A stretch of 64,000 bases of DNA, taken from NCBI GenBank assembly GCA_021083345.1, contig JAJGRE010000002.1, forward strand, positions 806,001 to 870,000, given 5' to 3'. The DNA is from Calditrichales bacterium MX18-03. GTDB taxonomy: Bacteria; Bacillota; Clostridia; Lutisporales; Lutisporaceae. The translations under genes were made by a program, and so were the position numbers. The notes beneath the pieces were generated by a model, which worked only from the letters and a program-made list of their open reading frames with translations, ran no database searches and had not been told where the DNA came from. Shown here in pieces: positions 44,102-61,227 of the stretch; the stretch's first letter is position 1, and each line of letters begins with the position of its first letter.

Positions 44102-45736
44102 TCACCTCCGGTAATACTGTTTGAGAATCTCAAGGTCATCGGTATCAACAGCCTTATCCCCATTGAGGTCCGCTCTCACATCCCAGCTTGCACTTTCAGG
44201 CCTGCTGCCAAATGCCCGGGCTATGATCACGAGATCATCCATATTGTAGACACCATCATTGTTGCTGTCGGTGCCAAATACCTCTACTTCACATTCAGCA
44301 TACCTGCTGCTGTCTGATGCACCGGCTGCCCTTATCAAAGCCGTACCAGGACTGACTGCCGTGACAACACCTTCAGCCGTAACATTTACGACTCCGGTGT
44401 TTGTTGAGCTCCATATCAAATTCTTGTTAACCGCATAGTCCGGAAAAACCACTGTAGTAAGCGTTTCAGTATCACCTATATGCATGTCCAACCTGTTTTT
44501 ACCCAGGCTCACGCTCTCAACCGGTGCATCCAAAACTTGCACAGCGGCATCATAAGCATTGACAATGCCGTAACCATAATTATTGTCTTTCCCCAAAGCG
44601 CCCTTATCTTTAGCCGTTGCCTTTATTACTGCATCTATCTCATCGGGAATCAAACCAGGGTCAATTGCTTTGAGAATTGCTGCAGCTCCGGAGACCATCG
44701 GTGCTGAGAAAGAGGTTCCGCTCACTTCTGCATATTTATTATCCGGTATGCAGGTCGCAATACCTTCCCCCGGTGCGACGATGTCGACTTCATTGTTGTA
44801 ATTTGAAAAATCCGATTTGCTTTCATCCTCTGCTATGGAACCCACCGAGATGACATTCGCATAGGACGCAGGATAGTTATATAAAGTACTATAGTCGTTG
44901 CCGGCAGATGCGATAACCGTAACCCCTTGTTCTATTGCATGCTGTATTGCATCATTTTCAGCGTTACTGTACTCATCGCTGCCCATACTGATATTGATAA
45001 TGTCGGCGTTTTTTTGTACCGCACCATAAATGGCTTCAATGAAGTCCGACAAATAGCTTCCTCCGCTTGCATCAGCTACCTTCAACGGCAGAATCTTGAC
45101 GTTCAGGCCTCCGGCAACCCCGACAATACCGGCACCGTTGCCGGCTTCTGCAGCGATAATGCCCGCAACAGCCGTGCCGTGCCAATGATCATCCCGCACA
45201 TCGGTGTTGTTATTGACATAATTGTAACCGCCCGGAGCAATCCTGTTCCTCAAATCCGGATGGATCAAATCGATGCCGGTGTCAATGACGGCAACGACCA
45301 CGGCGTTTCCCCCTGCAGGGACGATGCCAAGCGCCTGTTCTGCCTTAATCCTTGTCATACCCCACTGCTGCGAATAGAAGGGATCAGAGAAGGCTCCATG
45401 CAGCTTGAGCCTCTTGTTCTTTTCCGCATATAAAACCGAGCTGTCTTTTTTCAGCTCGTTTATGACACCCTCTACCGCACCTGCATCCGCGACATCCAAC
45501 ACCTGCAAATCGGCTGCTATTCTGCTGATTTTTTTTACCTTGGAAGCAACGGCAGCACTCAGTGTTTTTTTCTTTTCGCTCCCGGCTTTGTACTTGACCA
45601 GCACCTTATTGGCTTTGTCTTCGGCCAGGCTTGTGCCGGGTGCCGCTTGTGGGCTTGTCCCTTCTGCAATGGCAGGCAGGACAAGGTTGACGGCAAAAAA
45701 CAGTACGATCAGCAATATGGCAAAAAACTTTTTCAT
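44102..45736 (-). CDS. Secreted subtilisin-like serine protease with Big2 and dockerin domains
   Basis: 544 residues from ATG 45736 (GAGGG upstream). Signal peptide 1-25, an I9-type propeptide region (about 40-108), S8 peptidase about 125-400 with Asp152 (VIDTGID), His186 (HGTAVAG), Asn280 (ASAGND) and Ser342 (GTSFSAP), so all catalytic residues are present. A Big2 Ig-like domain follows at about 405-487. A type I dockerin at 488-544 has two calcium loops, DSNNDGVYNMDD and DLNGDKAVDTDD. Expected to act outside the cell, docked on a cohesin. Stop lies 4 bp before the kinase gene start. Confidence 0.93.
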   Translation of the reverse strand: MKKFFAILLIVLFFAVNLVLPAIAEGTSPQAAPGTSLAEDKANKVLVKYKAGSEKKKTLSAAVASKVKKISRIAADLQVLDVADAGAVEGVINELKKDSSVLYAEKNKRLKLHGAFSDPFYSQQWGMTRIKAEQALGIVPAGGNAVVVAVIDTGIDLIHPDLRNRIAPGGYNYVNNNTDVRDDHWHGTAVAGIIAAEAGNGAGIVGVAGGLNVKILPLKVADASGGSYLSDFIEAIYGAVQKNADIINISMGSDEYSNAENDAIQHAIEQGVTVIASAGNDYSTLYNYPASYANVISVGSIAEDESKSDFSNYNNEVDIVAPGEGIATCIPDNKYAEVSGTSFSAPMVSGAAAILKAIDPGLIPDEIDAVIKATAKDKGALGKDNNYGYGIVNAYDAAVQVLDAPVESVSLGKNRLDMHIGDTETLTTVVFPDYAVNKNLIWSSTNTGVVNVTAEGVVTAVSPGTALIRAAGASDSSRYAECEVEVFGTDSNNDGVYNMDDLVIIARAFGSRPESASWDVRADLNGDKAVDTDDLEILKQYYRR

Positions 45737-45790
45737 ATCATCCCTCAAATCCGGAAAATATAATCTGCTAACAAATATGGTTTATATTCC

Positions 45791-45819
45791 ATTTTATCAT
45801 GATTGCATCCAGTTATCAA
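45791..45819 (-). promoter_or_regulatory. Sigma-A promoter of subtilase-kinase operon
   Basis: TTGATA, 17 nt, TAAAAT on the minus strand, 55 bp before the protease start. Confidence 0.75.
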
Positions 45820-45832
45820 ATACTGTAAAAAA

Positions 45833-48757
45833 CTAGTACGAATGTACATAAGCCTGCTTCAAAATATAAAGGTCATCCATATCCACCTTGTCATCCTTAT
45901 TCAGATCTGCATCTGCATTATATCGTATTTCCCCTTTTCGACTGCCATAAGCTGCCGCCACAATGGTCAAATCATCCATACCGACTTTGTTATCATGGTT
46001 GCAATCACCGGCAAGTTGGTCTGAGGCAGTATTGAAGCCCCGAAGCCTGGACCTTTCATCTCCTAATACGGCATATTGCTCCCCATCAAAGGCTATAGCG
46101 TACAAGTTGTTGATCGTCGTTGACTTCAATTGTATCCAGTCAAAGCCGTCCCTTGACGCAAGAATCGTCCCTGTATAACCCACAGCAACAAACTTATCAC
46201 CATCCCAAATCACTGACTTCAACGCATCTCTTTTCCGGTTATCTATAAGCTGTGATGTCCTTTCAGTCCAATTAAATCCGTCAGGAGATACATATATGCT
46301 TTCAAAGGGACCCGAACTATAGTTATATGACTTGCCGCCAACAGCAACAAACTGTTCCCCGTTCCAAACAATACTATACATGATTCCAATTGGAGATTTT
46401 ACGGGTATCCACTCTGATCCGTTCGTTGAAACCATTATGATCCCACATATGCCGCCCATGCTGCTGTTCATGCCGGCAGCCACATATCTGCTGCCATTAT
46501 ATTCAGTTTCAAATACCTCGAACTGCGATGAGATTGATGCGATGGTTGTCCATTCCGACCCATCCTGCGATACCACCACTCCGGAACCCCCTATTGCCAT
46601 GAAGTGGCTGCCGTCCCACATAACCGCAGAGTATCTTCCTGTCTTTACCGCCTCCCATGTGATGCCATCTTCAGATGTTATGATGCTTGTTTCTCCTACC
46701 GCTACAAAACGGCTTCCATCCGAGGCAATAGCATATAGTTGCTGCAGCCCGTCATAATTGCCGGGTGTCCAGGTCCGACCATCCTGTGAAGTCATTATTT
46801 CCCCCGAGGTGCCAACCGCTGCAAAAATAGCGTCATTTTCAGCAATACCGTTATACCAGCCATTCAGTTCCGATCCTGATACCTGAGTCGTCCAGACTAT
46901 ACCATCGGGAGAAGTAAGGATGATGTCATTATACCCGATAGCTGCAAAAATGCCATGGCTATAGGTCAAACCATAAATACCTTGTGTAAGTCCGTCCGGC
47001 GATTCAACCGGCGTCCATTCAACCCCGTCTGTTGAGGTAAAGATGCTGCCCGTTGGTCCCAATGAGGTTCCTGCTGCAACAAATAAATCCTCACTGCAGG
47101 CAACATCATTCAGAAAAACATATTCATGATTCCATTGACTGGATGTCCAATTAAGGCCGTCAGGAGATGACAGAATAGCTCCATTATCACCCACAGCAAC
47201 AAATTTGCTGCCATTCCAGGCTATCCCACGAATAGAACCGTTTCTGCCCGATACTTGGGGTGTCCATACCGATGCGTCTGTGGAATATAGAATAGTCCCG
47301 TTGGCCCCTACAGCAGCAAAAGCAATGCCATTGTATGCTATGTCCAGCAATTCATTGGTGGTCCCGGACTCTACACGGGTCCAGATATTGCCGTCGTCTG
47401 ATACGATGATTTCCCCTGCATTGCCTACGGCAACATAAGCGCTGCTACTTGATGCTATCGCATTTATTTGGCCAGCTGTGTCCAAAATCCTTGCTTCCCA
47501 TATAATCCCGTCCACTGACTCTGCAATAACGCCTTTTTTCCCGAAAATCTCATACCCCACTGCAATCAATTTATCCAAGCCATACGTAATATCCTGAAAG
47601 ATTGCGGGTATTTCAATCTTCCTGTTTTTCCATACACTGCCGTCATTAGATGTTTTGACCAGACCATCCCTTCCAACGGCAACAAACTTGCCGGCGCCAT
47701 AAGCAATGCCAAACAAGTTATCTTTAGCTGAGCCCATATCCTTGTACCATGATATGCAGCCTTCCGAAAGGGGCTCAGCCGGAATACGGATGGAATCAAT
47801 CGCTATATCATTGTTGGCACTTAATGATCCGGCCTGCCCAGGTATCGGAAATGTCAATCCCGCTTCCAAGCCTTCACTGCTTCTGATTTTGGCACCAAAC
47901 AGCACAACCGGGTTCTCACTGTAATAATCCAAACGCTCTGAGAAATCCCCATCCTGCACCTGGTAGCTGAAGGTCAGTACATTCGATCCTGAGCCTTCGG
48001 AATAAACAGCATAGCGTTTGTTTGTACCTGTTTCCAGCTGCAACGCGGGCAAGCCTGTTACAAAAACATTACTCGAGAAAAATACCTTGATCGGAATGAC
48101 TTCACCGAATTTGAAGGTGCCACTGTCAACCTCGGCAGTCACATTCGTCACGACAGGCCTGTCCGCATTGGTGATAACGATGTTCCTGGAAGCACCGAGG
48201 GAGCCTGCGGCCCCTGGAACAGGTAAGGCCAGGTTTGCACTGTATGAATTACACGTTATTGTCCCACCGTTCAATTCCAGAGAATCTGCACTTACGTAGT
48301 CCAGCCTGGCAGTGCAATCGCCCGGTTGAACTTCATACCGAAACAACATCGAAATCGGATAATCGTCGTACCTAAACCCTGCAAAATATGCGTATCTGTC
48401 TGTTTCTCCGGTCCTAAGCAGGATTCTGGGCGAACCGGTAACATTCACGGCGGCATTGAAAAAGACCAATATCTCAATGATATCACCTGCACCATAGGTT
48501 CCATTCAAATTAGATGAAGACACGCTCATCACCCTGCACGGAAATGGCGGTGGTATTGCTGGTGTGGGTGTTGGAGGTGGTGGAGTGGGCGACGGAGTCG
48601 GTGATGGTGTTATAAATGGTGGTGGCGTTGGATATGACGTTGGTATTGGAGATGACGTTGGTACCGGCTGACTTTCTGCAAATACATATGAAATGCTAAT
48701 GATGCTCAGTACTGCACAGCACATGAGTAATAGCCCCAGTCTCTTAATAAGATGCAT
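45833..48757 (-). CDS. Secreted tandem beta-propeller protein with dockerin
   Basis: 974 residues. Signal peptide 1-27, a Pro/Thr/Ser-rich linker (about 28-72), and two copies of a roughly 110-residue Ig-like module with the xxYGxGDIIxIxVFF pattern (about 76-310). Then a long array of about 45-residue repeats of the form FVAVGxxGxIxxSxDGxxW, thirteen clear and one degenerate. The C-terminus is a dockerin (DCNHDNKVGMDD and DLNKDDKVDMDD). Fourteen repeats would fold as two seven-bladed propellers. No catalytic motif seen; binding or scaffolding is likely. Divergent from the gene at 48958. Confidence 0.85.
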   Translation of the reverse strand: MHLIKRLGLLLMCCAVLSIISISYVFAESQPVPTSSPIPTSYPTPPPFITPSPTPSPTPPPPTPTPAIPPPFPCRVMSVSSSNLNGTYGAGDIIEILVFFNAAVNVTGSPRILLRTGETDRYAYFAGFRYDDYPISMLFRYEVQPGDCTARLDYVSADSLELNGGTITCNSYSANLALPVPGAAGSLGASRNIVITNADRPVVTNVTAEVDSGTFKFGEVIPIKVFFSSNVFVTGLPALQLETGTNKRYAVYSEGSGSNVLTFSYQVQDGDFSERLDYYSENPVVLFGAKIRSSEGLEAGLTFPIPGQAGSLSANNDIAIDSIRIPAEPLSEGCISWYKDMGSAKDNLFGIAYGAGKFVAVGRDGLVKTSNDGSVWKNRKIEIPAIFQDITYGLDKLIAVGYEIFGKKGVIAESVDGIIWEARILDTAGQINAIASSSSAYVAVGNAGEIIVSDDGNIWTRVESGTTNELLDIAYNGIAFAAVGANGTILYSTDASVWTPQVSGRNGSIRGIAWNGSKFVAVGDNGAILSSPDGLNWTSSQWNHEYVFLNDVACSEDLFVAAGTSLGPTGSIFTSTDGVEWTPVESPDGLTQGIYGLTYSHGIFAAIGYNDIILTSPDGIVWTTQVSGSELNGWYNGIAENDAIFAAVGTSGEIMTSQDGRTWTPGNYDGLQQLYAIASDGSRFVAVGETSIITSEDGITWEAVKTGRYSAVMWDGSHFMAIGGSGVVVSQDGSEWTTIASISSQFEVFETEYNGSRYVAAGMNSSMGGICGIIMVSTNGSEWIPVKSPIGIMYSIVWNGEQFVAVGGKSYNYSSGPFESIYVSPDGFNWTERTSQLIDNRKRDALKSVIWDGDKFVAVGYTGTILASRDGFDWIQLKSTTINNLYAIAFDGEQYAVLGDERSRLRGFNTASDQLAGDCNHDNKVGMDDLTIVAAAYGSRKGEIRYNADADLNKDDKVDMDDLYILKQAYVHSY

Positions 48758-48833
48758 GCTGCATTCTCCTTCCTGCTTGCCCGCTTATCAACTCATTTCA
48801 GAGGTTCGCTATAGTACCCGATTATCCTTTTGT

Positions 48834-48863
48834 TTGCTGCACCAAATCGTTCGACAGTATAAT
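48834..48863 (+). promoter_or_regulatory. Possible promoter of 48958 gene
   Basis: TTGCTG, 18 nt, TATAAT on the plus strand, about 95 nt before the start. A TTCGACA heptamer (Spo0A-box-like) lies just before the -10. Confidence 0.45.
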
Positions 48864-48957
48864 ACAAATATCGCAAATAGCGTTCTTTCTTCTACTATGA
48901 TAGAATGAAAGTAATGATGTCCATCTATAACTGACGAGAAGAGCAAAGGAGAAACGA

Positions 48958-50142
48958 ATGAAAAGGTTGATGTGCTTCTTATTGGTATTTATGATTACTT
49001 TTACTGCGTTGCCAGGCAGCGTGCAAAACGTTTATGCAGGAGCCGTAAGGGTATCGGGTACTATCAGTATTAACGGCCTTACAAACGCCGATATAGCAGG
49101 TAGGGGCTATAATATCCGGTTTGACTGGTACCGTGATTATAATATGACCCAGCTGGCTTTCAGCAAAACACATACTGATATTGCAGGAGTACCTTATACC
49201 TTCAGTCATTATGTCTCTCAGGAAGGGCTTTTTGACATCAGAGTCTATCTTGATATGGATAAAGACAATGTTTTTGATACCAATGAGCCTTATCAGGTCA
49301 TAAGCCAGTATGTGGATTTCTCTAGCGAAGTCAGCGGGCTGAACATCGTCCTTACTGCACCGCCTGCACCTTTACCAACGTCGATCCTGACAGGCAGCAT
49401 CAATGCTGCAGGGTATACCCGTGAAGAGTGCATCAGCAACGGTTACATCATCAGAAGGAGTTTATACCATGACCCTGGCCTGACCCAGAAAATCGCTGAA
49501 GGTGATGAAAGCCTAAATGACTTGCCTCTTAGCTATTGGTGGACGTTTTATGTGGATCAGGGACAGTATTACCTGTTCGTATACATGGATAAGGATGGAG
49601 ATGGCATCCTGGATGAGGATGAGCCGAGGCAGAAGCTTCCGGTCCCCCTGGACCCTGACAACAGGATAGATGATTTCACTATCAACCTCATGCCTGCCGC
49701 AACCTTGCAAGGAAGCATACGCAGCAATATTCCGGAGTCCATCAACGGCATAAGTGTCCAGCTCTTTCACAACGGCGATACAGATGAAGCCCCTATAGCA
49801 ACTGCGTTGGCCGATGAAACAGGAAATTTTGAATTTCGAGGCGTTACAGCAGGAGATTATACTGTGGTAGCCGAAAATCCATCAGGCTTTGTGCCTGTCC
49901 AAATTGTCAATGTCTCTGTAGTGGAAGGGGAAATAAAATCAGTCGGCGAGCTTATGCTGGTCAAGGTTGATCTGGACGGGAACAACCGAACAGACATTGA
50001 TGACCTGATGACCGTTGCCCTATCATATGGCTCTGTCAAGGACGGACCGGGATGGGATACCAGAGCCGATCTGAACTGTGACGGCAGGATTGATGAAATT
50101 GATTTGAAAATACTGAATCAATACTATGGCCATGCCTGGTAA
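48958..50142 (+). CDS. Secreted prealbumin-like repeat protein with dockerin
   Basis: 394 residues with AAAGGAG 6 nt before the ATG. Signal peptide 1-28. Two similar beta-rich repeats follow (about 33-140 and 142-248), each ending in an EF-hand-like loop: DMDKDNVFDTNEP and DKDGDGILDEDEP. A CarboxypepD_reg/prealbumin-like module comes next (about 250-335, with DETGNFEFRGVTAGDYTV). The C-terminus is a dockerin (DLDGNNRTDIDD, DLNCDGRIDEID). Up to four calcium loops in one small protein. No enzyme motif. Only dockerin gene on the plus strand. Confidence 0.83.
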   Translation: MKRLMCFLLVFMITFTALPGSVQNVYAGAVRVSGTISINGLTNADIAGRGYNIRFDWYRDYNMTQLAFSKTHTDIAGVPYTFSHYVSQEGLFDIRVYLDMDKDNVFDTNEPYQVISQYVDFSSEVSGLNIVLTAPPAPLPTSILTGSINAAGYTREECISNGYIIRRSLYHDPGLTQKIAEGDESLNDLPLSYWWTFYVDQGQYYLFVYMDKDGDGILDEDEPRQKLPVPLDPDNRIDDFTINLMPAATLQGSIRSNIPESINGISVQLFHNGDTDEAPIATALADETGNFEFRGVTAGDYTVVAENPSGFVPVQIVNVSVVEGEIKSVGELMLVKVDLDGNNRTDIDDLMTVALSYGSVKDGPGWDTRADLNCDGRIDEIDLKILNQYYGHAW

Positions 50143-50159
50143 AACTAAACTGCAAACAG

Positions 50160-50194
50160 AAACCGCAGGCATATCTTCTGATAACCTGCGGTTT
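50160..50194. terminator. Bidirectional terminator between convergent dockerin genes
   Basis: Ten-base-pair stem AAACCGCAGG/CCTGCGGTTT with a 15-nt loop and flanking T tract. Confidence 0.82.
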
Positions 50195-50233
50195 TCTAAT
50201 CCACTTAACAAGCGGTTGTTCATCTTTGCTCTT

Positions 50234-53200
50234 TTATCTCGCTTCCCCTTCATCAACCAGTCCAAGGCTTACTGCCATACTCCAATCAATGATACCGTCT
50301 TCTACGTAAGCTTCTGCCAGCGTCTTATCTACTCCTTTGATATTCGCTCTCAATGTCTCGACTATAGTCACAGCCAGGTCATTGACCGTTATCGTCACAG
50401 CATCGGCTGAGCTGCTTAATCCCTTAGAGGCTGCAAATTCAATCACATTCCCATCTGTAAAGTCACCGACAACATCAACGGTATTTTTCGAGTACCCCAG
50501 GAAAGCAAGCATCACCCGATAGAAATCGTCAATCTCGACAGCATCATTGGGGCGAAAGTAATCTTCGTCAGCCCAACCCAGCTCCGGGTGCGCTTTCAAG
50601 TAAGCAAGCATCTTTCTTCCATCTGCCCAAGCAATGTTGCCATCTTGGAAATTGTCCGTTCCTGTGAAGGTTAATGCCTCGTTCGACAGTCCCTTTAGCC
50701 TTAAAGTAAATATGGCGGCCTGTAGCCTGGTAGGATGAGTCTCAGCGTATTCAACGGTAACACCGCTGCCGCTGCCCACAAAAATACCCAGTTCCGCTCC
50801 AATCATCAGGTCCTCACTTATCTGAACTGAAATCAAACCGTACCCCTCAGCCTTGGTGCGATCAAGTATACCCGCTTCAACCAAAATATCTGCTAGTGTT
50901 CTATTGGTATCCTTAACCTGAGCCTTCAATGCTTCTCCTGCTGCTATTGCAAGGTCGTTGTTTTTGAAGCTCGTGACAGCCGCTACCCGCGTCAGTCCTT
51001 TCGATGCCGCAAATTCAAACACATTATCCCATGTATAATCACCAATAACGGTAGGAGTGTTCATCTTATATCCCAAGGCCTCCAGCATCACTTTATAGCA
51101 TGCCTTGGCATTTATGGTATTGTTGGGCATGAAGTTTGTGCCGTCTCCAAGCCATCCCAATTCCGGATTCGCTTTCAGATAAGCCAGAATGTTTCGTCCC
51201 TCGGTCCAAGCAACCTGATCCGCATCTGCGAAATTAATGGTTCCGGTAAAGGCAGCTGCTTCATCATAAAGACCTTTGAGCCTCAAGAATAGTATTGCTG
51301 CCTTCAGTCTGGTCGTTGCACCTGCTGCATATTCGGCTGTTATGATACCATTATCTCCCATTAGACCTAGTGAATTGCACATAAGCAGCTGCGAGCTAAT
51401 TTGCGGGGTAGTACTTTGATAATTGGCCCTCAACAACTGAAAGTCCGGTTTGCTGATTGCTCCATCGCCATTCAGATCGTACATCGCGTAGGTTGTATCC
51501 CATGCAGGATCCGTTGAATTCCTATTAAAAGCCATCGATAACCGTACCAAATCGTCAATATCCACCAAGCCATCTTCATCAAAGTCTCCGGGAATCGATT
51601 CAATTGGATCACCAACAATGTTGATCACCGTACTTGCAGGCGCAATCGGTATAGGTCCGCCGTCCACCCGGAAAGTCGCATTGAAAGTACCAGATGTATT
51701 GGGGAGGACCACTTCAGGGTTCATAATGTCAGGAATTATGATGGTGTACTGTTCACTGGTGTTAGCTGCATTTACCAGTTCCAGCTCGCCTGGTATAAAT
51801 GACCCATCCGGATTATATGCTCTTATGCGAGACCCATAATTGTCAAATACACCGAAGTCCTTATAAATGTTCTTAAACCCAGGATAATATGTAAGCTGTT
51901 CCGGGGTAATGACTTCAAAATCTGCACCCAGTTGATATGTGAAGTCTCCGGTAACCTGTTGGTTTGCTTTTTCGTAACGGTACCTGAAGCCATCCGTTGT
52001 ATCAAACCTAAGAATCAAGCGCTGTAAGGTTTTATTGAGATATATGCTGCTATTAACGATATTTCTGACACCAGGGGTATCACTGATGCTTTCGTAGTGT
52101 GGAGCTGAAAAACAGTTATAAAGCTGCAGTGGGGTGCCGCTGTCATTATTCATATTGATGGTCATTTTTGCCATCTCATTTTCCTCAAATGTAATCGTAT
52201 CATTTATTGAATCCAACACAATGTTTTCTTTGTATAGCACATAAGAGCTGGTAGCATCATGGGCCCTGACCTGTATTCCATACTCTCCTGCCGGTATAAG
52301 GCTTGAAGGCTTAAGACCCCCACCTATATTAAGCCATTCGCCTTCAGGCATATACTTGTACAATGCTATGCCGTCTATCACAAGTCCTTCTGTCGCAGGC
52401 ATTAGGACTTGCACCGGAAAGTAAGTGCTGTCAATGTCCAGGGTCATTGTACTGCCCTGATCATCAGGCGTCGCTTCAACCATGTAGTGACGGTTGCCGC
52501 TTATGCAAACATAGTATTTATCTACCTCGGTCCAATCAAGCCCGGATATCACGATCTCAAAATCATCGCCTGCAACTCCGATTGTAACAGTGTAAGATTC
52601 TTCATCTACATTCTCGAAGTCACCGTCTTCTAAATAGTAAATATTAAAATCAGCAACATTACGCTGCCCTCTGGCAATCAGTGTTATCGTGTCTCCGTTG
52701 CTGCCTCCACCTCCATTGTTGTCTCCCTCTCCAACAATGTTGATCACCGTACTTGCAGGCGCAATCGGTATAGGTCCGCCGTCCACCCGGAAAGTCGCAT
52801 TGAAAGTACCAGATGTATTGGGGAAGGTTACTCTCGGTTTCATGATGTCGGGGATTGTAATGCTGTATTGTTCACTGATATTGGCTGCATTAACCAACTG
52901 TAACGTACCGGGAACCAACGAGCCATCCGGGTTGCTTACTCTTATCCGGTACCCGAAATTATCATACACGCCTAAGACTTGGCTCAAGTCTTCTGAATAT
53001 CCTGCATCAAACGACAGCTGCCCGGCGGCTGCTATTGCAGTGAAGTCCGTTCCCAGTGAATATAACGCATCTTCTGCTACATTGACAAAGCTCTTTGTAT
53101 ATCTGTATCTGTAGCCGTCAGGTGTGATAAAAGTGAACCGCTGCAGCTGACTGCCTTTAGTAACATATAGGCTTCCGTTTATGTTGCTCCCTGTTCCTGA

Positions 53201-53908
53201 TTGATCGATGACATTATTGTAGTTGTGTAAAAAATATGAAGACGTATAGAACTGCATTCCAATGCCACTGGTATTGTTGAGGTTGATATCAACCGCGGCT
53301 ATCTCATCGGCAGAAAATGCTATCGTACTATTAGACGCATCAAGCGTGACCAAATTCTTGTAAAGATTATATTTGCCTGTGTTATCGTGGGCCATAACTT
53401 GGACAGCGTACTCTCCCGACGGAACAAGATCCGAAGGCTTAAGCTCACAGCCGACCCACATCCATTCTCCCTCGGGCATGCATTTGAATAGTGAGATATC
53501 CTCAATCACCAGTCCACCCTCAGAAGGTATATCCACCTGCAGCGGTACGTAGGTGCTGTCTATATCCAAGGTAATCGTTTCACCCACATCGGCAGATGTG
53601 ACACCAGCCGTATAAAGGCGTTCTCCGCTTATGCAGACATAGTATTTGCCGGCAAGGTTCCAATCAAGGCCTGATACCATAATGTGGGCATCCGTACTGT
53701 TGATGCTCTTTGAAATACTGAGCTGGTCCGATTCATACAATTCAAAATAGCCGTCATCCATAAAGTACACCGATATGTCTGAGGTATTTGTCATGCCCTT
53801 GGCAATGATTGTAATGCTATCCCACGATGCATGTACGTCAGAAACAAATAAGCTACTAATTAGCAATACCAAGGTTAAAACCAACGCAGACGTCCTTTTG
53901 CTTATCAT
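50234..53908 (-). CDS. Large secreted protein: duplicated ectodomain, internal dockerin, SLH-like C-terminus
   Basis: 1224 residues from ATG 53908 (GGAGGAGCCGAG just upstream). Signal peptide 1-29. Two long homologous units of about 370 residues (about 30-395 and 400-770) each end in GTFNATFRVDGGPIPIAPA. A dockerin-like pair of calcium loops (DFDEDGLVDIDD, DLNGDGAISKPD) follows in the interior at about 785-845. Two C-terminal units of about 175 residues (about 860-1224) have features of S-layer homology motifs, for example GDGTNFMPNNTINAKACYKVML. May anchor to the wall through the SLH-like part while the dockerin binds a cohesin (inference). No enzyme motif. Confidence 0.8.
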   Translation of the reverse strand: MISKRTSALVLTLVLLISSLFVSDVHASWDSITIIAKGMTNTSDISVYFMDDGYFELYESDQLSISKSINSTDAHIMVSGLDWNLAGKYYVCISGERLYTAGVTSADVGETITLDIDSTYVPLQVDIPSEGGLVIEDISLFKCMPEGEWMWVGCELKPSDLVPSGEYAVQVMAHDNTGKYNLYKNLVTLDASNSTIAFSADEIAAVDINLNNTSGIGMQFYTSSYFLHNYNNVIDQSGTGSNINGSLYVTKGSQLQRFTFITPDGYRYRYTKSFVNVAEDALYSLGTDFTAIAAAGQLSFDAGYSEDLSQVLGVYDNFGYRIRVSNPDGSLVPGTLQLVNAANISEQYSITIPDIMKPRVTFPNTSGTFNATFRVDGGPIPIAPASTVINIVGEGDNNGGGGSNGDTITLIARGQRNVADFNIYYLEDGDFENVDEESYTVTIGVAGDDFEIVISGLDWTEVDKYYVCISGNRHYMVEATPDDQGSTMTLDIDSTYFPVQVLMPATEGLVIDGIALYKYMPEGEWLNIGGGLKPSSLIPAGEYGIQVRAHDATSSYVLYKENIVLDSINDTITFEENEMAKMTINMNNDSGTPLQLYNCFSAPHYESISDTPGVRNIVNSSIYLNKTLQRLILRFDTTDGFRYRYEKANQQVTGDFTYQLGADFEVITPEQLTYYPGFKNIYKDFGVFDNYGSRIRAYNPDGSFIPGELELVNAANTSEQYTIIIPDIMNPEVVLPNTSGTFNATFRVDGGPIPIAPASTVINIVGDPIESIPGDFDEDGLVDIDDLVRLSMAFNRNSTDPAWDTTYAMYDLNGDGAISKPDFQLLRANYQSTTPQISSQLLMCNSLGLMGDNGIITAEYAAGATTRLKAAILFLRLKGLYDEAAAFTGTINFADADQVAWTEGRNILAYLKANPELGWLGDGTNFMPNNTINAKACYKVMLEALGYKMNTPTVIGDYTWDNVFEFAASKGLTRVAAVTSFKNNDLAIAAGEALKAQVKDTNRTLADILVEAGILDRTKAEGYGLISVQISEDLMIGAELGIFVGSGSGVTVEYAETHPTRLQAAIFTLRLKGLSNEALTFTGTDNFQDGNIAWADGRKMLAYLKAHPELGWADEDYFRPNDAVEIDDFYRVMLAFLGYSKNTVDVVGDFTDGNVIEFAASKGLSSSADAVTITVNDLAVTIVETLRANIKGVDKTLAEAYVEDGIIDWSMAVSLGLVDEGEAR
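51612..51705 (-). repeat. 94-bp exact direct repeat, copy A
   Basis: Identical to 52732-52825. Both copies encode the end of the long ectodomain unit (GTFNATFRVDGGP region) of the SLH-like protein. The rest of the units differ, so the identity points to recent conversion or strong constraint. Confidence 0.95.
52732..52825 (-). repeat. 94-bp exact direct repeat, copy B
   Basis: Second copy, in the same gene and frame, 1120 bp from copy A. Confidence 0.95.
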
Positions 53909-54053
53909 TCTCGGCTCCTCCTTCAATTCACGCATGCATGTATTCCTTGAAAATTTGGGTTCGTTCCTGCGTTTCAGGACTTCCTTCTCAATTATACTCC
54001 TTTTTTCCACATTTTTCTATCAATACAATAATAATATGCAAATACTCGACAGG

Positions 54054-54102
54054 GCAAATTTAAACAGCCAACCGGGGCTATAATTTTTGCCCAGGTTGGC
54101 TG
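54054..54102 (-). terminator. Terminator after WD40/PQQ protein gene
   Basis: Long stem with CAGCCAACC and GGTTGGCTG arms plus a GGGC/GCCC inner helix, then TTTAAATTT on the minus strand. Confidence 0.85.
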
Positions 54103-54117
54103 CATCTTCCTGTAACC

Positions 54118-57100
54118 TTACTCAAGATTTATTTTCATTGCCAGTATCACCAAATCGTCTATATCGACAACGCCGTCATCGTTCATGTCAAAGTCAGGAT
54201 TCAGTGTGCCATAGGCCTGTGACATCATTTTCAAATCTGCCAAGTCTATTTTCCCGTCACCGTTGAAATCCCCTTTTCCGGGAGAATCTGTATTCTGAAC
54301 CCGCCTCATTGCATATATCCTGCCCTGATCATTGGCAAAATAAAATGCGCTGTCATGGCCTATTGTGGGACGTGTCGCAGGATTGGTTACCAGTTCCCCT
54401 TGCCAGCTTACAGAACCATCCTGCTTAATGGCTGAAAGACCCAATAAGAAGGTATTATTCTTGTCTATGGCAAATAGCGCATTCAGGTTCCTCTCTCCGG
54501 CAATTGAACCGTCCTTGCGGATTTCATAAGTCTTATTGTAAGTATTAAAATTGTTGTTAAACGAATTCGCATATACTGTCCCATCCTTGCTTATTGCCAC
54601 AGGTTCTATCCTTGTAGAATAAGCTTTGTCTAGTGCAGCCCACCGCATACTGCCGCTGGCATTGAGTGAATACAGCTTGCCTTCAATATCTCCGATATAA
54701 ATGTTCTCTTCGTTGTCTATTGCCATTTTCCCGGATAAATGAGCGGCATGACTATATTCCCATTTTAGGCTGCCGTTCGGATTGATGGCATATACGTTTT
54801 TATTTTCAGTGCTTACATAAATAGTCCCGCTTTTTCCGATAATGGGTGTGTTTTTGATGACCCCGCCAGGCCCAGTCAAATATGTCCACTTTATCGTTCC
54901 GTCAGGATTGATCGCGTATAAACTTGCGTTTGTACTGCCTGCATAGATTGTGCCATCTGCTCCGATTGCAGGAGCACTTATAATCCTCGAGTATCCATCT
55001 CCAATATTTAGTTTCCATTTTCTCGTACCGTCCGGATTGATGGCATATAGATTCCTGTCTATCGACCCTACATAGATCGTCCTGTCTTTGCCTATGACCG
55101 GTTCACTGCCTTCCGGAACCGGATAGGCCCACAAGCTGTTTCCATTGTTGTCTAAGGCGTACAAATAGTCTCCCGTTGTATAATACATGATGTTTTCTGA
55201 ATCAATGACTATTGACGACCTTACTTCTTCACCGGCTTCAAAGGTCCATTTAACTTCATAATCAGTACCCACCTCATACCTCGATTGCCTCGTCCAGTTC
55301 TGCAAAGTTGGCTGAATCCCCAGTCTATCATAAGCGCCTGGCTCATACCCCCCAAAGGCATCATTCTGATCAAATGGGGCAACCGATGTGAATGGGTATA
55401 CATACTCTTCTGATAACGGATTACCGGACATGTCTGTGACGGCACCGGCAGGTATAACCACCGTATATTGCTCTCCATTAATTAAATTTGAAGCTGCGTC
55501 AAGTACTAGGCTTTCGCTTACCACTGATTTTTCTATATTGATGATATTCTCATCTGAGTCCTTTAAAAAGATATTGTTATAATCGGTTCCTTCATCAATA
55601 GCTTTGCTGAAGACAACATTGATCTGCTTATTCATACTTTCATCCACTGTCAGATACGTTTTCCGGATGACCGGTCCGCTTACAACATTGATTTCACAGA
55701 GGGCCGTCATGGTACCATCCTCTGTTGAAATGCCCACCACGGCATTGCCTGGCTGCAAAGGTGTTACGACAGCGCTTGTCCCGTTTTCCTCTATAGATAC
55801 AACGGCTTCATCACTTGTAGACCATGTGAGGTTTATTCTCTCCCTATCAAAAGTCAGATTCCGGGGAACAATCTGCGCATCCAAAACAACCGGATCTCCG
55901 CTTTCACTGAGTTTCAAATGGGATTTATTCAAAAGGAGATTATCCATTCCGTGATCTTTTACAAGAAACATGGCCATGTCTGAAGATAGGATATCGTCAC
56001 CATTCATCAGCTTGACCCGCACAGTTCCTCCGTTGGGCGACACCGGTGATATTACAGCACTTTGTCCATCATGGGTAAGTGCAGCTATGGTGTCGTCAAT
56101 TTCCCATTGAATATCCGTCCAATTATTGTCTCCGGCCAAGTATATACTCGCTTCAAGCGCCTCCGCCATCCCGCCTTTTTCTACAGTGAAGTATTTCTTA
56201 TTCAAAGCGATGCCTTCCATCACGATATTGATGGATTCACTGGTATATACCTCCCCTGCTTCATCTTCAACTTCACACCTCAAGCTATAATTACCCGGAT
56301 CCATATTAAAGTTGTCCCAGTAACCGCTTATCGAGAAATCACTCTCATCGCACGGAAGAACGACATTGAGCTTATCATTGACATATAACCTTGCTTCTCT
56401 TGGATTGTTAATATTTTTAATATCTACAGCAATAGGTATCAGGTCATTACTTACATTTATATCCTTCTTTTTATAGTATGTACCGTCAACCGGATACTTC
56501 ATAGATACAATGGGTGCCGTAACTTCATTACTCTCCACTTGCACGTTCCAGGAGGATATACCTTTACCGGACTTGGATATGATCGTTTGATTATCAGGAA
56601 GGATTTTTACATAATCCGCCGTACTTTGAACCTTTATAGCTCTTATCAGTTGTCCATCCAGTATATTCCATACCTTTATGGTTTTATCATAAGAGGCTGA
56701 TGCCATTATCTGATTGTCAGAGCTGATTGCCACACTTGTAACTCTGTCTGAATGTCCGGTTAGCGTCCGGATAAGCGTGCCTGATGCTGCATCCCATATT
56801 TTTACAGCTCTGTCCAGCGAGCCGCTGACTATCGTATTGCCGTCTGCACTGATGGCTACACTGCTTATTTCGTTCGTATGGCCTGATAATGTATGTACCA
56901 GCGTGCCGTTTTCTCCATTCCACACCTTCACCGTTCGGTCCCTGGAACCGCTTACGATGGTTTTGCCGTCCGCGCTGACAGCGATACTGCTTATTCCGTC
57001 CGTATGACCTGATAAAGTATATAAAATGCTGCCGTTATCTGCGTTCCAGAGCTTTACTTTTCTATCATCCGAACCGCTAGCCATGATTTCGCCATCAGCA

Positions 57101-58017
57101 CTGATCGCGATGCACTTAACGGTGTTGCTATGGCCTTGGCTATTATAATTGGAGTTCCTTATTCTATAAATCTCTGACCCGTCTCCAATATTTTTCAAAA
57201 TGATGTCACTAAAATATCCATAGGCTATATAGCTTCCATCCGGACTATAGGCAATGCCTCTGGGATTTGTGCCGTTGTATGAGCCATTTACCAAAGTCCT
57301 TTCAACTTGTCCGTTTTCTAAATCTAATATATCAATTTTATTCCTGGAATATTCATATGCCGCTTTTGTTCCGTCAGGGCTAAGAGCCATGCTGGAAATA
57401 CGGTATTCCGGAAAAAAAGTTGTTAACGAAGCATCTGTCTTATTCACTGCCAGCGTATGAATATCCGGCCATGAAGCCTTCTCCAGCCTGTTTATTAAGG
57501 TTTTCCCTTTTACGGCTCCAGTTTTTACACGGGGATAAACCTCATCATCATTATAGATGAGGATATGTGCAGGCAAGTCCGTTTCATTGAACACATTAAG
57601 CTTCACCCCACTCCGGTCAGCATGGGAGATCCTTTCAGTGCTATAGACTTTGATAACAAACTCCCCGATGACCTCCGGCTCAATTTCCGTCCATCCGTTT
57701 TCCAGCGGATATCGAATGCTTTCCGTACTGTAGCTGCAGAAATACTCGCCACTCTCACTCTGCACAAGCCAAATGCTTGTATTTTCAAAACCCGAATTTT
57801 CTCCGTAGATTTTGGTACCTGTGGCCCCATGCAACCCTATCATGACTGAAGGATAATCGCTTGTAACCGGATGCAACTGGATATCTATAGAGGACACCCC
57901 TGTGCTATCATAGAGCTCATCCAAGCTTGTACCGGCAGCTGCAGGCAACAAAGAACAGATCTGAATTACCACTGTAAGGATCAAAAAAAATGCTATGCTT
58001 TTTCTTTTGGTCTCCAT
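54118..58017 (-). CDS. Secreted double-propeller protein (WD40 and PQQ types) with dockerin
   Basis: 1299 residues. Signal peptide 1-28, an N-terminal domain of unknown type (about 30-190), a WD40 propeller (about 200-490) with repeats such as LSGHTDGISSIAVSADGKTI and VKVWN, Ig-like and Big2-like domains (about 500-790), and a Big_5/SwmB domain (about 800-900). A PQQ-like propeller follows (about 930-1235) with repeats like LYAINPDGTIKWTY. The C-terminal dockerin (DFNGDGKIDLAD, DMNDDGVVDIDD) covers 1243-1299. WD40 repeats in a secreted dockerin protein are unusual. Start touches the vanZ stop (TAAATG). Confidence 0.88.
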   Translation of the reverse strand: METKRKSIAFFLILTVVIQICSLLPAAAGTSLDELYDSTGVSSIDIQLHPVTSDYPSVMIGLHGATGTKIYGENSGFENTSIWLVQSESGEYFCSYSTESIRYPLENGWTEIEPEVIGEFVIKVYSTERISHADRSGVKLNVFNETDLPAHILIYNDDEVYPRVKTGAVKGKTLINRLEKASWPDIHTLAVNKTDASLTTFFPEYRISSMALSPDGTKAAYEYSRNKIDILDLENGQVERTLVNGSYNGTNPRGIAYSPDGSYIAYGYFSDIILKNIGDGSEIYRIRNSNYNSQGHSNTVKCIAISADGEIMASGSDDRKVKLWNADNGSILYTLSGHTDGISSIAVSADGKTIVSGSRDRTVKVWNGENGTLVHTLSGHTNEISSVAISADGNTIVSGSLDRAVKIWDAASGTLIRTLTGHSDRVTSVAISSDNQIMASASYDKTIKVWNILDGQLIRAIKVQSTADYVKILPDNQTIISKSGKGISSWNVQVESNEVTAPIVSMKYPVDGTYYKKKDINVSNDLIPIAVDIKNINNPREARLYVNDKLNVVLPCDESDFSISGYWDNFNMDPGNYSLRCEVEDEAGEVYTSESINIVMEGIALNKKYFTVEKGGMAEALEASIYLAGDNNWTDIQWEIDDTIAALTHDGQSAVISPVSPNGGTVRVKLMNGDDILSSDMAMFLVKDHGMDNLLLNKSHLKLSESGDPVVLDAQIVPRNLTFDRERINLTWSTSDEAVVSIEENGTSAVVTPLQPGNAVVGISTEDGTMTALCEINVVSGPVIRKTYLTVDESMNKQINVVFSKAIDEGTDYNNIFLKDSDENIINIEKSVVSESLVLDAASNLINGEQYTVVIPAGAVTDMSGNPLSEEYVYPFTSVAPFDQNDAFGGYEPGAYDRLGIQPTLQNWTRQSRYEVGTDYEVKWTFEAGEEVRSSIVIDSENIMYYTTGDYLYALDNNGNSLWAYPVPEGSEPVIGKDRTIYVGSIDRNLYAINPDGTRKWKLNIGDGYSRIISAPAIGADGTIYAGSTNASLYAINPDGTIKWTYLTGPGGVIKNTPIIGKSGTIYVSTENKNVYAINPNGSLKWEYSHAAHLSGKMAIDNEENIYIGDIEGKLYSLNASGSMRWAALDKAYSTRIEPVAISKDGTVYANSFNNNFNTYNKTYEIRKDGSIAGERNLNALFAIDKNNTFLLGLSAIKQDGSVSWQGELVTNPATRPTIGHDSAFYFANDQGRIYAMRRVQNTDSPGKGDFNGDGKIDLADLKMMSQAYGTLNPDFDMNDDGVVDIDDLVILAMKINLE

Positions 58018-58518
58018 TTAACTCTCCTTTCGCGGGTGTATTAGAGTTTCGTAGCCCCGAATTGCCCCAGCAGCTGCAAGTATCCCGATACTATCAATTG
58101 CGACATCCGTAATTTTCCCTTCACGCCCAACGGTGAATAGCTGATGGAACTCGTCGAGGCAAGCATAGAGTAAGGAAAGGGCAATACAAAGCAGCATTGA
58201 CTTTCTGCACTTGACTCCAGTAGCTCTGAGTGCGGCGTATATCAGAATGGTCAATACTGCAAATTCAGCAACATGAAAGAATTTTCTTACGAGAAATTCC
58301 TGCAGCTTAAAACTCAGTTTTCCGGCTTCCTGCTTGACAGCCTCCGGCACAGCTTGCCTTACAGCCTTCGTGATGCTTTTGCTCCTTGAGCCGGACACAG
58401 ATGCTATCTCCGATGAAAAATGAAAAATGACAAACATCCAGGCTATGACCGCAAGCCATGCCAGGGTTCTTTTATTCCACACCGCAAAAAGAAGTCTTTT
58501 TTGACAATTGCTGTGCAT
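58018..58518 (-). CDS. VanZ-like family membrane protein
   Basis: About 166 residues with four hydrophobic segments. Family pattern: VIFHFSSEI near the N-terminus, RKFFHVAEFAVLTILIY in the middle and LLYACLDEFHQLFTVGREGKITDVAIDSIG near the end. ATG 58518 with AAGGAG 10 nt upstream is preferred; an ATG eight codons earlier overlaps that Shine-Dalgarno. Role unknown; VanZ in enterococci gives low-level teicoplanin resistance. Translationally coupled to the following secreted propeller gene. Confidence 0.88.
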   Translation of the reverse strand: MHSNCQKRLLFAVWNKRTLAWLAVIAWMFVIFHFSSEIASVSGSRSKSITKAVRQAVPEAVKQEAGKLSFKLQEFLVRKFFHVAEFAVLTILIYAALRATGVKCRKSMLLCIALSLLYACLDEFHQLFTVGREGKITDVAIDSIGILAAAGAIRGYETLIHPRKES

Positions 58519-58624
58519 TTGACCATTTCTCCTTATTTCCATTCATCTTGTTTCTATTCTCTATGATAGCATTTCAGTTTAACGGCAACAATATAGAACA
58601 AACGTCCATTAGCATTTTGTGATA

Positions 58625-58668: not shown

Positions 58669-61131
58669 CTACTTTGATATCGGGTTCCCGTCTTTTCCGA
58701 TAAACAAAGCTGCTCCATCCTTCATGACCTTGGCATAGCCGCTTAAAAAATCCCCTGCTTCATCATATTGAGGTTCTACGATATATTTCCCGTCTTTTCC
58801 TATGTAGCCCCATGCAGTACCGACCTTGACCCTGGCCGCACCCTCAGTAAAATCTCCCGCGTCGTCATACTGTGGCTCTGCCATCCACTTGCCGGTTTTG
58901 TCCACAAAGCCCCACTTCCGGTTGACTTTGACCTTTGCGAGGTCTTCAAAGAAATTTCCTGCGATATCAAATTGCGGCTGGATGATGTAGCTGCACCCTG
59001 TATCTATATAGCCATACTTGCCTTTTTCCTTGACTATAGCAATACCTTCACCAAAGCTTTCCGCCATATCGTATTTCATCTCGGAGACAAGATTACCGCT
59101 CTTATCCACATAACCGTATTTGAAGCCGATGTTCACTACAGCCAAACCCTCAGAAAAGTCCTCAGCCCAATCATACTGAGGCTGTACCAGGTATTTGCCC
59201 TTTTCATCAATATAACCCCATCTGCCGCCTTCAATAAATCTTGTATTGTCTGTATTACTCTCCAAATTAACATTAAGATTGACCCTACCGCCTACATTGA
59301 CCCTGGCCAAACCGTCAGCATGGTTCTCAGCCCAGTCGAATTCCGGCTTTATCATGAATTCGCCGGTTTTGTCAATAAAGCCCCACTTGTTTGTATTCCT
59401 TACTGCGACCAACGATTCCGATATATGTCCTCCCAGATCATATTTGGGCTGAACAATGTAATTCCCGCTTCTATTGATGTAACCGTATTTCATGCTTCCG
59501 TTCAGATCCTTCACACCTACAAGTCCCATTCCATCATAGAAATCCTCTGCGTAGTTAAACTGCGGATTAATAACGTATGAACCTGTGGGATTGATATATC
59601 CCCATTTGTAGTCCACCCTGATCCTTGCCATATCCCCGTTAAAGTTCTTTGCTTCCTCGTACTGGGGCGTAATTACCATTTTCCCGGATTTATTGATATA
59701 GCCCCATTTGCCGTCCAACTTCACGCATGCAAGGTCCTTAGAAAAGCTCAGCGCATCTTCAAACTGGAGCTTTATGACCTGCTTCCCTGATTTATCTATA
59801 TATCCGTATTTGTAATGGCTGCCGGATCTTAGAACGGCTACCGCCAATCCCCCTGAATAGCTTCGTACTTCATCATATTGCGGTTTTACAACGTATTGGC
59901 CTTTTTTGTCCACAAAGCCCCATTTTCCATCTTTCTGTACCGCTGCCAAACCCTCAGAAAAGCCCTCAGCGTTTTCGAATTCAGGATTAATGATATATTT
60001 TCCTGACTTGTCCATAAAGCCCCATTGATAATCCAGCTTCACAGCCGTACAACCCTCGGAAAAATCTCGTGCATAGTCAAACTGAGGGTTCAGTACCACT
60101 TTGCCTGAAGTATCTATAAAACCATACTTCCCTTTTATACTGTATCTCGCCATATCCTCAGAAAAATCTTCGGCCATATCAAACTGCGGATCAGACAAGT
60201 AATTGCCCTTTGTATCAATATAGCCCCATAAGCCTCCTGTGATAGACAAGTACTGGTATGCATTCTTCTTATGCTCTACTAGCTCATCCTTTGACATGCG
60301 CTCCGGGGATTTGTCTATAATCTCAACATACTTATCGAGCCTTCCGCCAACATTGACCCGTGCAATACCATTTGAAAAATGACTGCACCAAGCATATTGC
60401 GGCTTAACGACCGTTTCGCCTTTGTTGTTGATGTATCCCCATTTCCCATTGATATTGACTCTGGCTAATCCATCAGAGAAATATCCGGCGCTGTCGAAGC
60501 TTCCGGACATGACTTCATTCCCATCCTTATCCAGGTAACTCCATATGTACGGCAGCATCACTCTCGCCTTGCCCTCGGCAAAGTCACCGGAGTATAAATA
60601 TCGCTCGTCACTCAGGTACTTGCCGGTGACATCAATATACCCCCACTTGCCGAATTCTTTTACCCTGGTGAAGTCCTCAGCAAAATTCCTAATATCCTCG
60701 TATTGCAAACTTATAGAATAATTCCCTTTTTTATCGATCAAGCCCCACTTGCCAGCGATTGATACTCTTGCGTAGTTGCCTTCGAAATCATCTGCCACCT
60801 CGAATTTGGGCTCAATCACCAAGCTGCCGGAATGATCTATGTAACCCCATTTGCCGGAAAGCTTTACTCTGGCCATATCTCCGGCAAATACACCGGCTTC
60901 TTCATACTGCGGCTTGATTACAAAATTGCCTTTGGCATCCCGGAAGCCCCATTTATCCTGTTTTTTATCAGGATATAGCTCTGATGCAGCCTGATTAACG
61001 GCAGCTGTTCCGCTTGTTTGCGTTTTAACTTTGTTTTTTGCGGTGCATGCCGATGTTGTCACTATAAGAATGCAGATCGCCAAGAGCATCATCACCATGT
61101 CAAAGAATCTTATTCTTTTGAATACTTCCAA
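58669..61131 (-). CDS. WG-repeat protein with N-terminal membrane anchor or lipoprotein signal
   Basis: 820 residues from a TTG at 61131 with GGGGGG 8 nt upstream; an upstream ATG at 61227 overlaps the promoter and is rejected. N-terminal hydrophobic segment ending in TTSAC, a lipobox-like site with an atypical Thr at -3. Then 20 full WG repeats plus one truncated copy, period about 34 residues (KWGYIDxxGxxxIxPQFDxAxxFxEGLAxVxxxG). Three repeats have insertions of 20-25 residues. WG proteins are extracellular or surface proteins of unknown binding partner. Ends in a strong terminator. Confidence 0.9.
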   Translation of the reverse strand: MEVFKRIRFFDMVMMLLAICILIVTTSACTAKNKVKTQTSGTAAVNQAASELYPDKKQDKWGFRDAKGNFVIKPQYEEAGVFAGDMARVKLSGKWGYIDHSGSLVIEPKFEVADDFEGNYARVSIAGKWGLIDKKGNYSISLQYEDIRNFAEDFTRVKEFGKWGYIDVTGKYLSDERYLYSGDFAEGKARVMLPYIWSYLDKDGNEVMSGSFDSAGYFSDGLARVNINGKWGYINNKGETVVKPQYAWCSHFSNGIARVNVGGRLDKYVEIIDKSPERMSKDELVEHKKNAYQYLSITGGLWGYIDTKGNYLSDPQFDMAEDFSEDMARYSIKGKYGFIDTSGKVVLNPQFDYARDFSEGCTAVKLDYQWGFMDKSGKYIINPEFENAEGFSEGLAAVQKDGKWGFVDKKGQYVVKPQYDEVRSYSGGLAVAVLRSGSHYKYGYIDKSGKQVIKLQFEDALSFSKDLACVKLDGKWGYINKSGKMVITPQYEEAKNFNGDMARIRVDYKWGYINPTGSYVINPQFNYAEDFYDGMGLVGVKDLNGSMKYGYINRSGNYIVQPKYDLGGHISESLVAVRNTNKWGFIDKTGEFMIKPEFDWAENHADGLARVNVGGRVNLNVNLESNTDNTRFIEGGRWGYIDEKGKYLVQPQYDWAEDFSEGLAVVNIGFKYGYVDKSGNLVSEMKYDMAESFGEGIAIVKEKGKYGYIDTGCSYIIQPQFDIAGNFFEDLAKVKVNRKWGFVDKTGKWMAEPQYDDAGDFTEGAARVKVGTAWGYIGKDGKYIVEPQYDEAGDFLSGYAKVMKDGAALFIGKDGNPISK

Positions 61132-61198
61132 GATTATAGCCCCCCAATTTTTCAAATAATAAGTAATTGAGACAAAATTCCCCTCACTTAACATAATT

Positions 61199-61227
61199 AT
61201 TATAGCAAAAATCGTAAAGGCTGGCAA
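61199..61227 (-). promoter_or_regulatory. Sigma-A promoter of WG-repeat gene
   Basis: TTGCCA, 17 nt, TATAAT on the minus strand, 68 bp before the TTG start. Confidence 0.8.

Follow-up and report, generated by a model that had tools for sequence, protein, structure and literature searches.

The five adjacent genes P1 to P5, at positions 44102-58017 of the window analyzed here (64,000 nucleotides, bases 806001-870000 of contig 8, C8, of a 4.69-Mb clostridial genome), probably encode the client half of a noncellulosomal cohesin-dockerin surface assembly located in a cell-envelope gene region. A first-pass annotation of the DNA had described a five-gene dockerin cluster within 14 kb, and all five open reading frames were found in place, each with one match to the Pfam family Dockerin_1. 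Signal peptides recognized by eye mark the five products as secreted. The features are as follows:

44102-45748, minus strand: P1, secreted S8 subtilase with prodomain, Big_2 domain, and C-terminal dockerin (Pfam Peptidase_S8 5.7e-59, Fervidolysin_NPro-like, Big_2, Dockerin_1)
44105-44284, minus strand: P1 dockerin (Dockerin_1 and our own profile)
45833-48757, minus strand: P2, secreted BNR-type propeller(s) with N-terminal beta-rich region and C-terminal dockerin
45836-46018, minus strand: P2 dockerin (Dockerin_1 and our own profile)
48958-50142, plus strand: P3, secreted prealbumin-like protein (SdrD_B / CarboxypepD_reg, Pfam) with C-terminal dockerin
49954-50139, plus strand: P3 dockerin (Dockerin_1 and our own profile)
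50234-54010, minus strand: P4, two repeats of ≈360 residues, internal dockerin, and two predicted C-terminal SLH units
50237-50815, minus strand: predicted P4 SLH unit 2 (≈48-49% identity to unit 1)
50816-51403, minus strand: predicted P4 SLH unit 1 (AlphaFold2 pLDDT 95.4; Z 10.7-12.1 to SLH domains in the PDB; hhalign 93%)
51407-51601, minus strand: P4 internal dockerin (Dockerin_1 and our own profile)
51611-53830, minus strand: P4 tandem repeats, 52% identical to each other, probably all-beta in a low-confidence model
54118-58017, minus strand: P5, secreted, with WD40 repeats, Ig-like region, PQQ/BamB-type repeats, and C-terminal dockerin
54124-54282, minus strand: P5 dockerin (Dockerin_1 and our own profile)
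58018-58542, minus strand: VanZ-family membrane protein (PF04892, 5.6e-19), directly upstream of P5 with no gap

P1 retains its catalytic motifs for Asp (DTGID), His (HGTAVAG), and Ser (SGTSFSAP). P2 contains ≈12 S-x-DG-x-x-W motifs by motif count and gives partial matches to the propeller families DUF6242, F510_1955, and BamI, and P5 matches the Pfam families WD40 (3.2e-49) and PQQ_2 (1.6e-23). The N-terminal repeats of P4 were modeled poorly (pLDDT 54). The N-terminal domain of P5 (window 57454-57894) matches, at 34% identity across 123 residues, the C-terminal portion of a PilO/T2SSM-like protein encoded in the type IV pilus operon of the same genome (C7:114715-115974), and it also resembles PilO/T2SSM-like proteins of relatives; through this common domain, P5 may be connected with the pilus.

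Because P3 lies on the plus strand, divergent from P2, and the other four genes lie on the minus strand, the cluster does not form a single operon. Promoter and terminator scans scored no better than shuffled sequences, so operon claims are limited to gene spacing, which suggests that the VanZ-family gene and P5 are possibly cotranscribed. An 852-aa protein with ≈19 WG repeats (PF14903, 2.6e-216; window 58669-61227), probably exported, adjoins the cluster.

The modules shared by the five proteins, C-terminal in four and internal in P4, are each a single type I dockerin with two EF-hand loops, for which calcium binding is predicted. Against the curated Dockerin_1 (PF00404) cut-off of 22.9 bits, genome-wide scores were 33.6, 30.6, 27.5, 25.0, and 22.1 bits, the last passing only when taken with its in-frame neighbors (23.3 bits); in a per-protein scan, two of the five fell just under the cut-off (22.2 and 18.8 bits). 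A dockerin profile drawn from this genome and one relative scores P1 to P5 at 65-92 bits, with all five in its training set. When searched against the PDB, this profile ranks the cellulosomal dockerin 2y3n_B first (2.3e-19), far ahead of calmodulin (≈1e-7), which rules out generic EF-hands and identifies the modules as dockerins. Dockerin models and solved dockerins are thus the better match, as the first-pass annotation had supposed. Its description of the module holds in part. Two calcium loops are present in all five, but in place of the proposed ≈24-residue spacing the loop starts lie 33 residues apart in three proteins, 36 in P4, and 27 in P5, with a gap of ≈21 residues in most; the proposed W-xxx-ADLN bridge is clean in two (WDVRADLN and WDTRADLN) but absent from P5.

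Dockerins and cohesins were counted by profile searches of the genome's contigs. The Pfam search yielded 11 intact dockerin proteins, nine of which, along with all of the cohesins, lie inside ≈120 kb, or 2.6% of the genome. Chance clustering is excluded: the probability that a dockerin has at least four of the other ten no more than 14 kb away in either direction is ≈3e-7, and that of finding eight of the other ten inside the 120-kb stretch is ≈8e-12. This stretch is a cell-envelope region, with S-layer and exopolysaccharide genes. Between the window cluster and the cohesin genes we recognized by eye genes for sugar-nucleotide, glycosyltransferase, flippase-like, and chain-length proteins, and a second pyruvyl transferase is also encoded there; two ordinary SLH proteins are encoded beside the cohesin block, and beyond the cohesins are proteins with the SLH-type unit of P4. 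A twelfth dockerin, client-type and truncated (G000:C10:138231-138377), sits directly behind an IS3-like transposase fragment and represents a broken dockerin gene.

The expectation that the cohesin partner is encoded elsewhere was borne out on the same contig. Pfam cohesins (PF00963) occur on three adjacent genes at C8:898574-911268, 29-41 kb past the right edge of the window, with the domains themselves at C8:901760-911184 (32-41 kb past that edge). A 1273-aa protein bears its cohesin N-terminally, on a stalk of repeats, a 675-aa protein has a cohesin followed by a dockerin, and a 2247-aa protein has two cohesins, the first at the N terminus and the second immediately ahead of its dockerin; two of the three cohesin proteins therefore bear a dockerin of their own. 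As single matches, the Pfam scores are weak (22-32 bits). When run against the PDB, a cohesin profile of nine sequences (four from this genome, one doubtful, and four from relatives) picks up the Acetivibrio cellulolyticus ScaB cohesins (4.8e-10), and it recovers no additional cohesin from the genome. On leave-one-out, three cohesins scored 30-34 bits, against at most 12 for shuffles, and the fourth 15.9 against 11.9, so that three are clearly and one is moderately supported. A further candidate, a 463-aa dockerin protein (G000:C8:890299-891690) whose N-terminal part looks cohesin-like by eye, was rejected at 4.5 bits against 5.6 for shuffles. The genome thus holds four supported cohesins and one doubtful one.

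Nine of the dockerin proteins count as clients, including 2053-aa beta-repeat, 2254-aa repeat with Big_2, and 1648-aa transglutaminase-LRR-RCC1 proteins in addition to the window cluster. The dockerins of P1, P2, P3, the 2053-aa protein, and the contig-10 and contig-7 proteins share 39-55% mutual identity, and those of P4, P5, and the 463-aa protein are more loosely related to this group. The two scaffoldin dockerins, on the 675- and 2247-aa proteins, stand apart from the clients at 21-37% identity, and client and scaffoldin dockerins may therefore differ in specificity.

This separation of the six client dockerins from the two scaffoldin dockerins is what would be expected if the clients bypass the native cohesins, serving as calcium-stabilized C-terminal caps or binding the cohesins of other species, while the native cohesins serve the dockerins of the cohesin proteins. 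Relatives lend this reading some weight. Among 21 genomes of the same family, three (G004, G005, and G009) gave a cohesin or dockerin match, and the nearest dockerin-bearing one, G004, encodes three kelch/RCC1 propeller proteins (L038, L039, and L040) in each of which a dockerin or a dockerin-like stretch comes immediately after a cohesin; no dockerins were found in G004 beyond these three proteins, which are possibly self-polymerizing. Similarly, dockerins of Paenibacillus guangzhouensis occur nearly all within cohesin proteins (PMC11557425). We nevertheless consider a bypass unlikely, since four cohesins and nine client dockerins, most within 120 kb, fit an internal partnership better. The G004 proteins, which like the clients here are not CAZymes, speak for the client-half reading and also indicate that the association of propellers with cohesin-dockerin modules is a recurring one in this family.

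We give still less credence to the idea that P1 to P5 are mere neighbors in a surface-protein hotspot, where a dockerin module spread among unrelated proteins that form no joint complex. Their architectures are unrelated, their strands are mixed, the truncated contig-10 dockerin lies behind a transposase fragment, and P4 and P5 have no full-length relative in the genomes searched. Conserved synteny in related Clostridia, raised in the first-pass annotation, did not emerge: P4 (41 genomes) and P5 (61 genomes) gave part-length matches only. A first scan of P4 against named genomes gave no match, matches to the 2247-aa protein in relatives are mostly to its dockerin, and megablast of the cluster against plasmids gave none. 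Against recent spread, however, the five dockerins are too divergent (28-50% identical to each other), and the retention of both calcium loops points to selection for function.

No glycoside hydrolase, polysaccharide lyase, or carbohydrate esterase match was obtained on any of the 11 dockerin proteins, which extends to the genome's dockerin proteins the first-pass observation that none of the five is a plant-polysaccharide enzyme. Two glycoside hydrolase families were searched genome-wide: GH9 is absent, in a search whose positive control was detected, and GH48 gave no match, in a search without a working positive control. Cohesins number at most two per protein, and the cohesin proteins gave no CBM match. 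Cellulosome identity was rejected on the lack of CAZyme clients, the absence of GH9, and the lack of a multi-cohesin scaffoldin with a CBM. That the set is left over from, or an accessory to, a real cellulosome is very improbable and already mostly refuted by these same results, even though in cellulosome makers dockerins are commonly found on peptidases and structural proteins as well as on CAZymes (PMC5590126 and PMC3413522).

In P4, the candidate wall anchor, residues 866-1258 comprise two copies of a ≈190-residue unit, and comparison of its AlphaFold2 model with the PDB (Foldseek, VIA-align) places the SLH domains of SpaA from Paenibacillus alvei and Sap from Bacillus anthracis first, with rmsd values of 3.1-3.8 over 139-157 residues. 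All of the top 13 PDB entries are SLH domains; the best Foldseek E-value is only 4e-3, and one entry for an X-prolyl dipeptidyl aminopeptidase comes next, at Z 10.4. The SLH assignment is therefore based on Z, on coverage, and on a separate hhalign comparison with a canonical SLH alignment. By this modeling, the units adopt a true but divergent three-repeat SLH fold, in agreement with the proposal of an SLH-like wall-anchoring candidate in the cluster. The fold is common to SpaA and Sap, but sequence identity to them is 15-19%, and the Pfam SLH family (PF00395) does not match the P4 unit and matches one of 11 relatives at E 1.2. The T-R motif is kept in the first SLH repeat only, which tempers the case for wall binding.

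CsaB makes the SLH ligand, a pyruvylated wall polymer, and the genome encodes CsaB (TIGR03609) at C8:150006-150854, with 276.8 bits against a cut-off of 213.1. P4 likely binds the cell wall. Units of this type occur at 66 related loci (L057-L122) in Clostridia MAGs, including Gracilibacteraceae bacterium AS22ysBPME_45 and Clostridiales bacterium GWB2_37_7, and in Paenibacillus; in these the unit is near the N terminus, directly behind the signal peptide in nearly all, and no dockerin-like loop was seen in the frames of the 66 loci.

In the client-half reading, P1 to P5 would be exported and their dockerins loaded with calcium, most likely plugging into the cohesins of the 1273-, 675-, and 2247-aa proteins. 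Because two of these bear dockerins of other sequence types, the 675- and 2247-aa proteins may connect with one another in the manner of adaptor scaffoldins, and with one or two cohesins per protein, each scaffold would hold few clients. Anchoring would occur via P4 or the S-layer, with P4 as the likely wall anchor, its SLH units on the pyruvylated wall polymer and its dockerin on a cohesin protein. The usual anchor of a cellulosome is the scaffoldin, and in G028 and G037, of the same class, cohesin proteins with SLH domains adjoin dockerin proteins, the ordinary polarity. Here, we tentatively suggest an inverted assembly in which P4, with SLH units and no cohesin, is wall-bound and the cohesin scaffolds hang from wall-bound dockerins, carrying the protease and propellers. 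The S-layer would then display a protease together with several binding propellers and adhesin-like, beta-rich proteins. The propellers may bind proteins or glycans, the subtilase might process surface proteins or provide nutrients by proteolysis, and the whole might process surface or environmental protein or mediate adhesion. For the noncellulolytic extracellular assembly first proposed, the cohesins, the dockerins, the SLH fold, CsaB, the gene clustering, and the lack of polysaccharide-degrading clients stand as found; the dockerin-cohesin pairings, coexpression, joint action, and assembly role are what we infer from sequence.

Noncellulosomal cohesin-dockerin systems are known from Peer et al. 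2009 and from ANME archaea and Archaeoglobus, as cited in PMC9012536, which places noncellulolytic proteins with dockerins on record since at least 2009. These systems likewise have cohesins and dockerins on secreted noncellulolytic proteins, and their scaffoldin-like proteins combine a dockerin with one or several cohesins; ours differs in belonging to an uncultured clostridial family and in that SLH is found on the dockerin protein. Lachnoclostridium sp. MSJ-17, Limihaloglobus sulfuriphilus, and P. guangzhouensis, termed "scaffoldin-containing" and presumed noncellulolytic (PMC11557425), are similar in that no scaffoldin has more than two cohesins, many dockerin proteins are not CAZymes, and cohesin-dockerin pairs occur in one protein, but their genomes encode one or more lignocellulose enzymes with a dockerin or many glycoside hydrolases, whereas none was found on the dockerin proteins here. 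Clostridium thermocellum dDoc_0689 (Chen et al. 2024, as cited in PMC12484212) is also a dockerin-carried subtilisin-like protease thought to be surface-held; by comparison, P1 has a single dockerin and no surrounding cellulosome. ScaK of A. cellulolyticus, with SLH, two dockerins, and two cohesins (PMC3413522), likewise combines SLH and dockerin in one polypeptide, but no cohesin was found in P4, and its SLH units are C-terminal and of a divergent clade. The first-pass annotation presents the set as unlike classical cellulosomes, but noncellulosomal systems are already known, as are S8 proteases with dockerins and proteins that join SLH to a dockerin (PMC9012536, PMC12484212, PMC11557425, PMC3413522, and PMC5590126), and what is unusual here is the architecture of P4.

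A single genome supplies a short list of components, nine client proteins and four cohesins together with the wall anchor and the enzyme for its ligand, few enough for every pairing to be testable. The SLH clade represented by P4, which Pfam does not score, is widespread on surface proteins of Clostridia MAGs and Paenibacillus. If the inverted assembly suggested above is correct, this organism would possess a surface assembly unlinked to polysaccharide breakdown, with an anchoring polarity opposite to that of cellulosomes.
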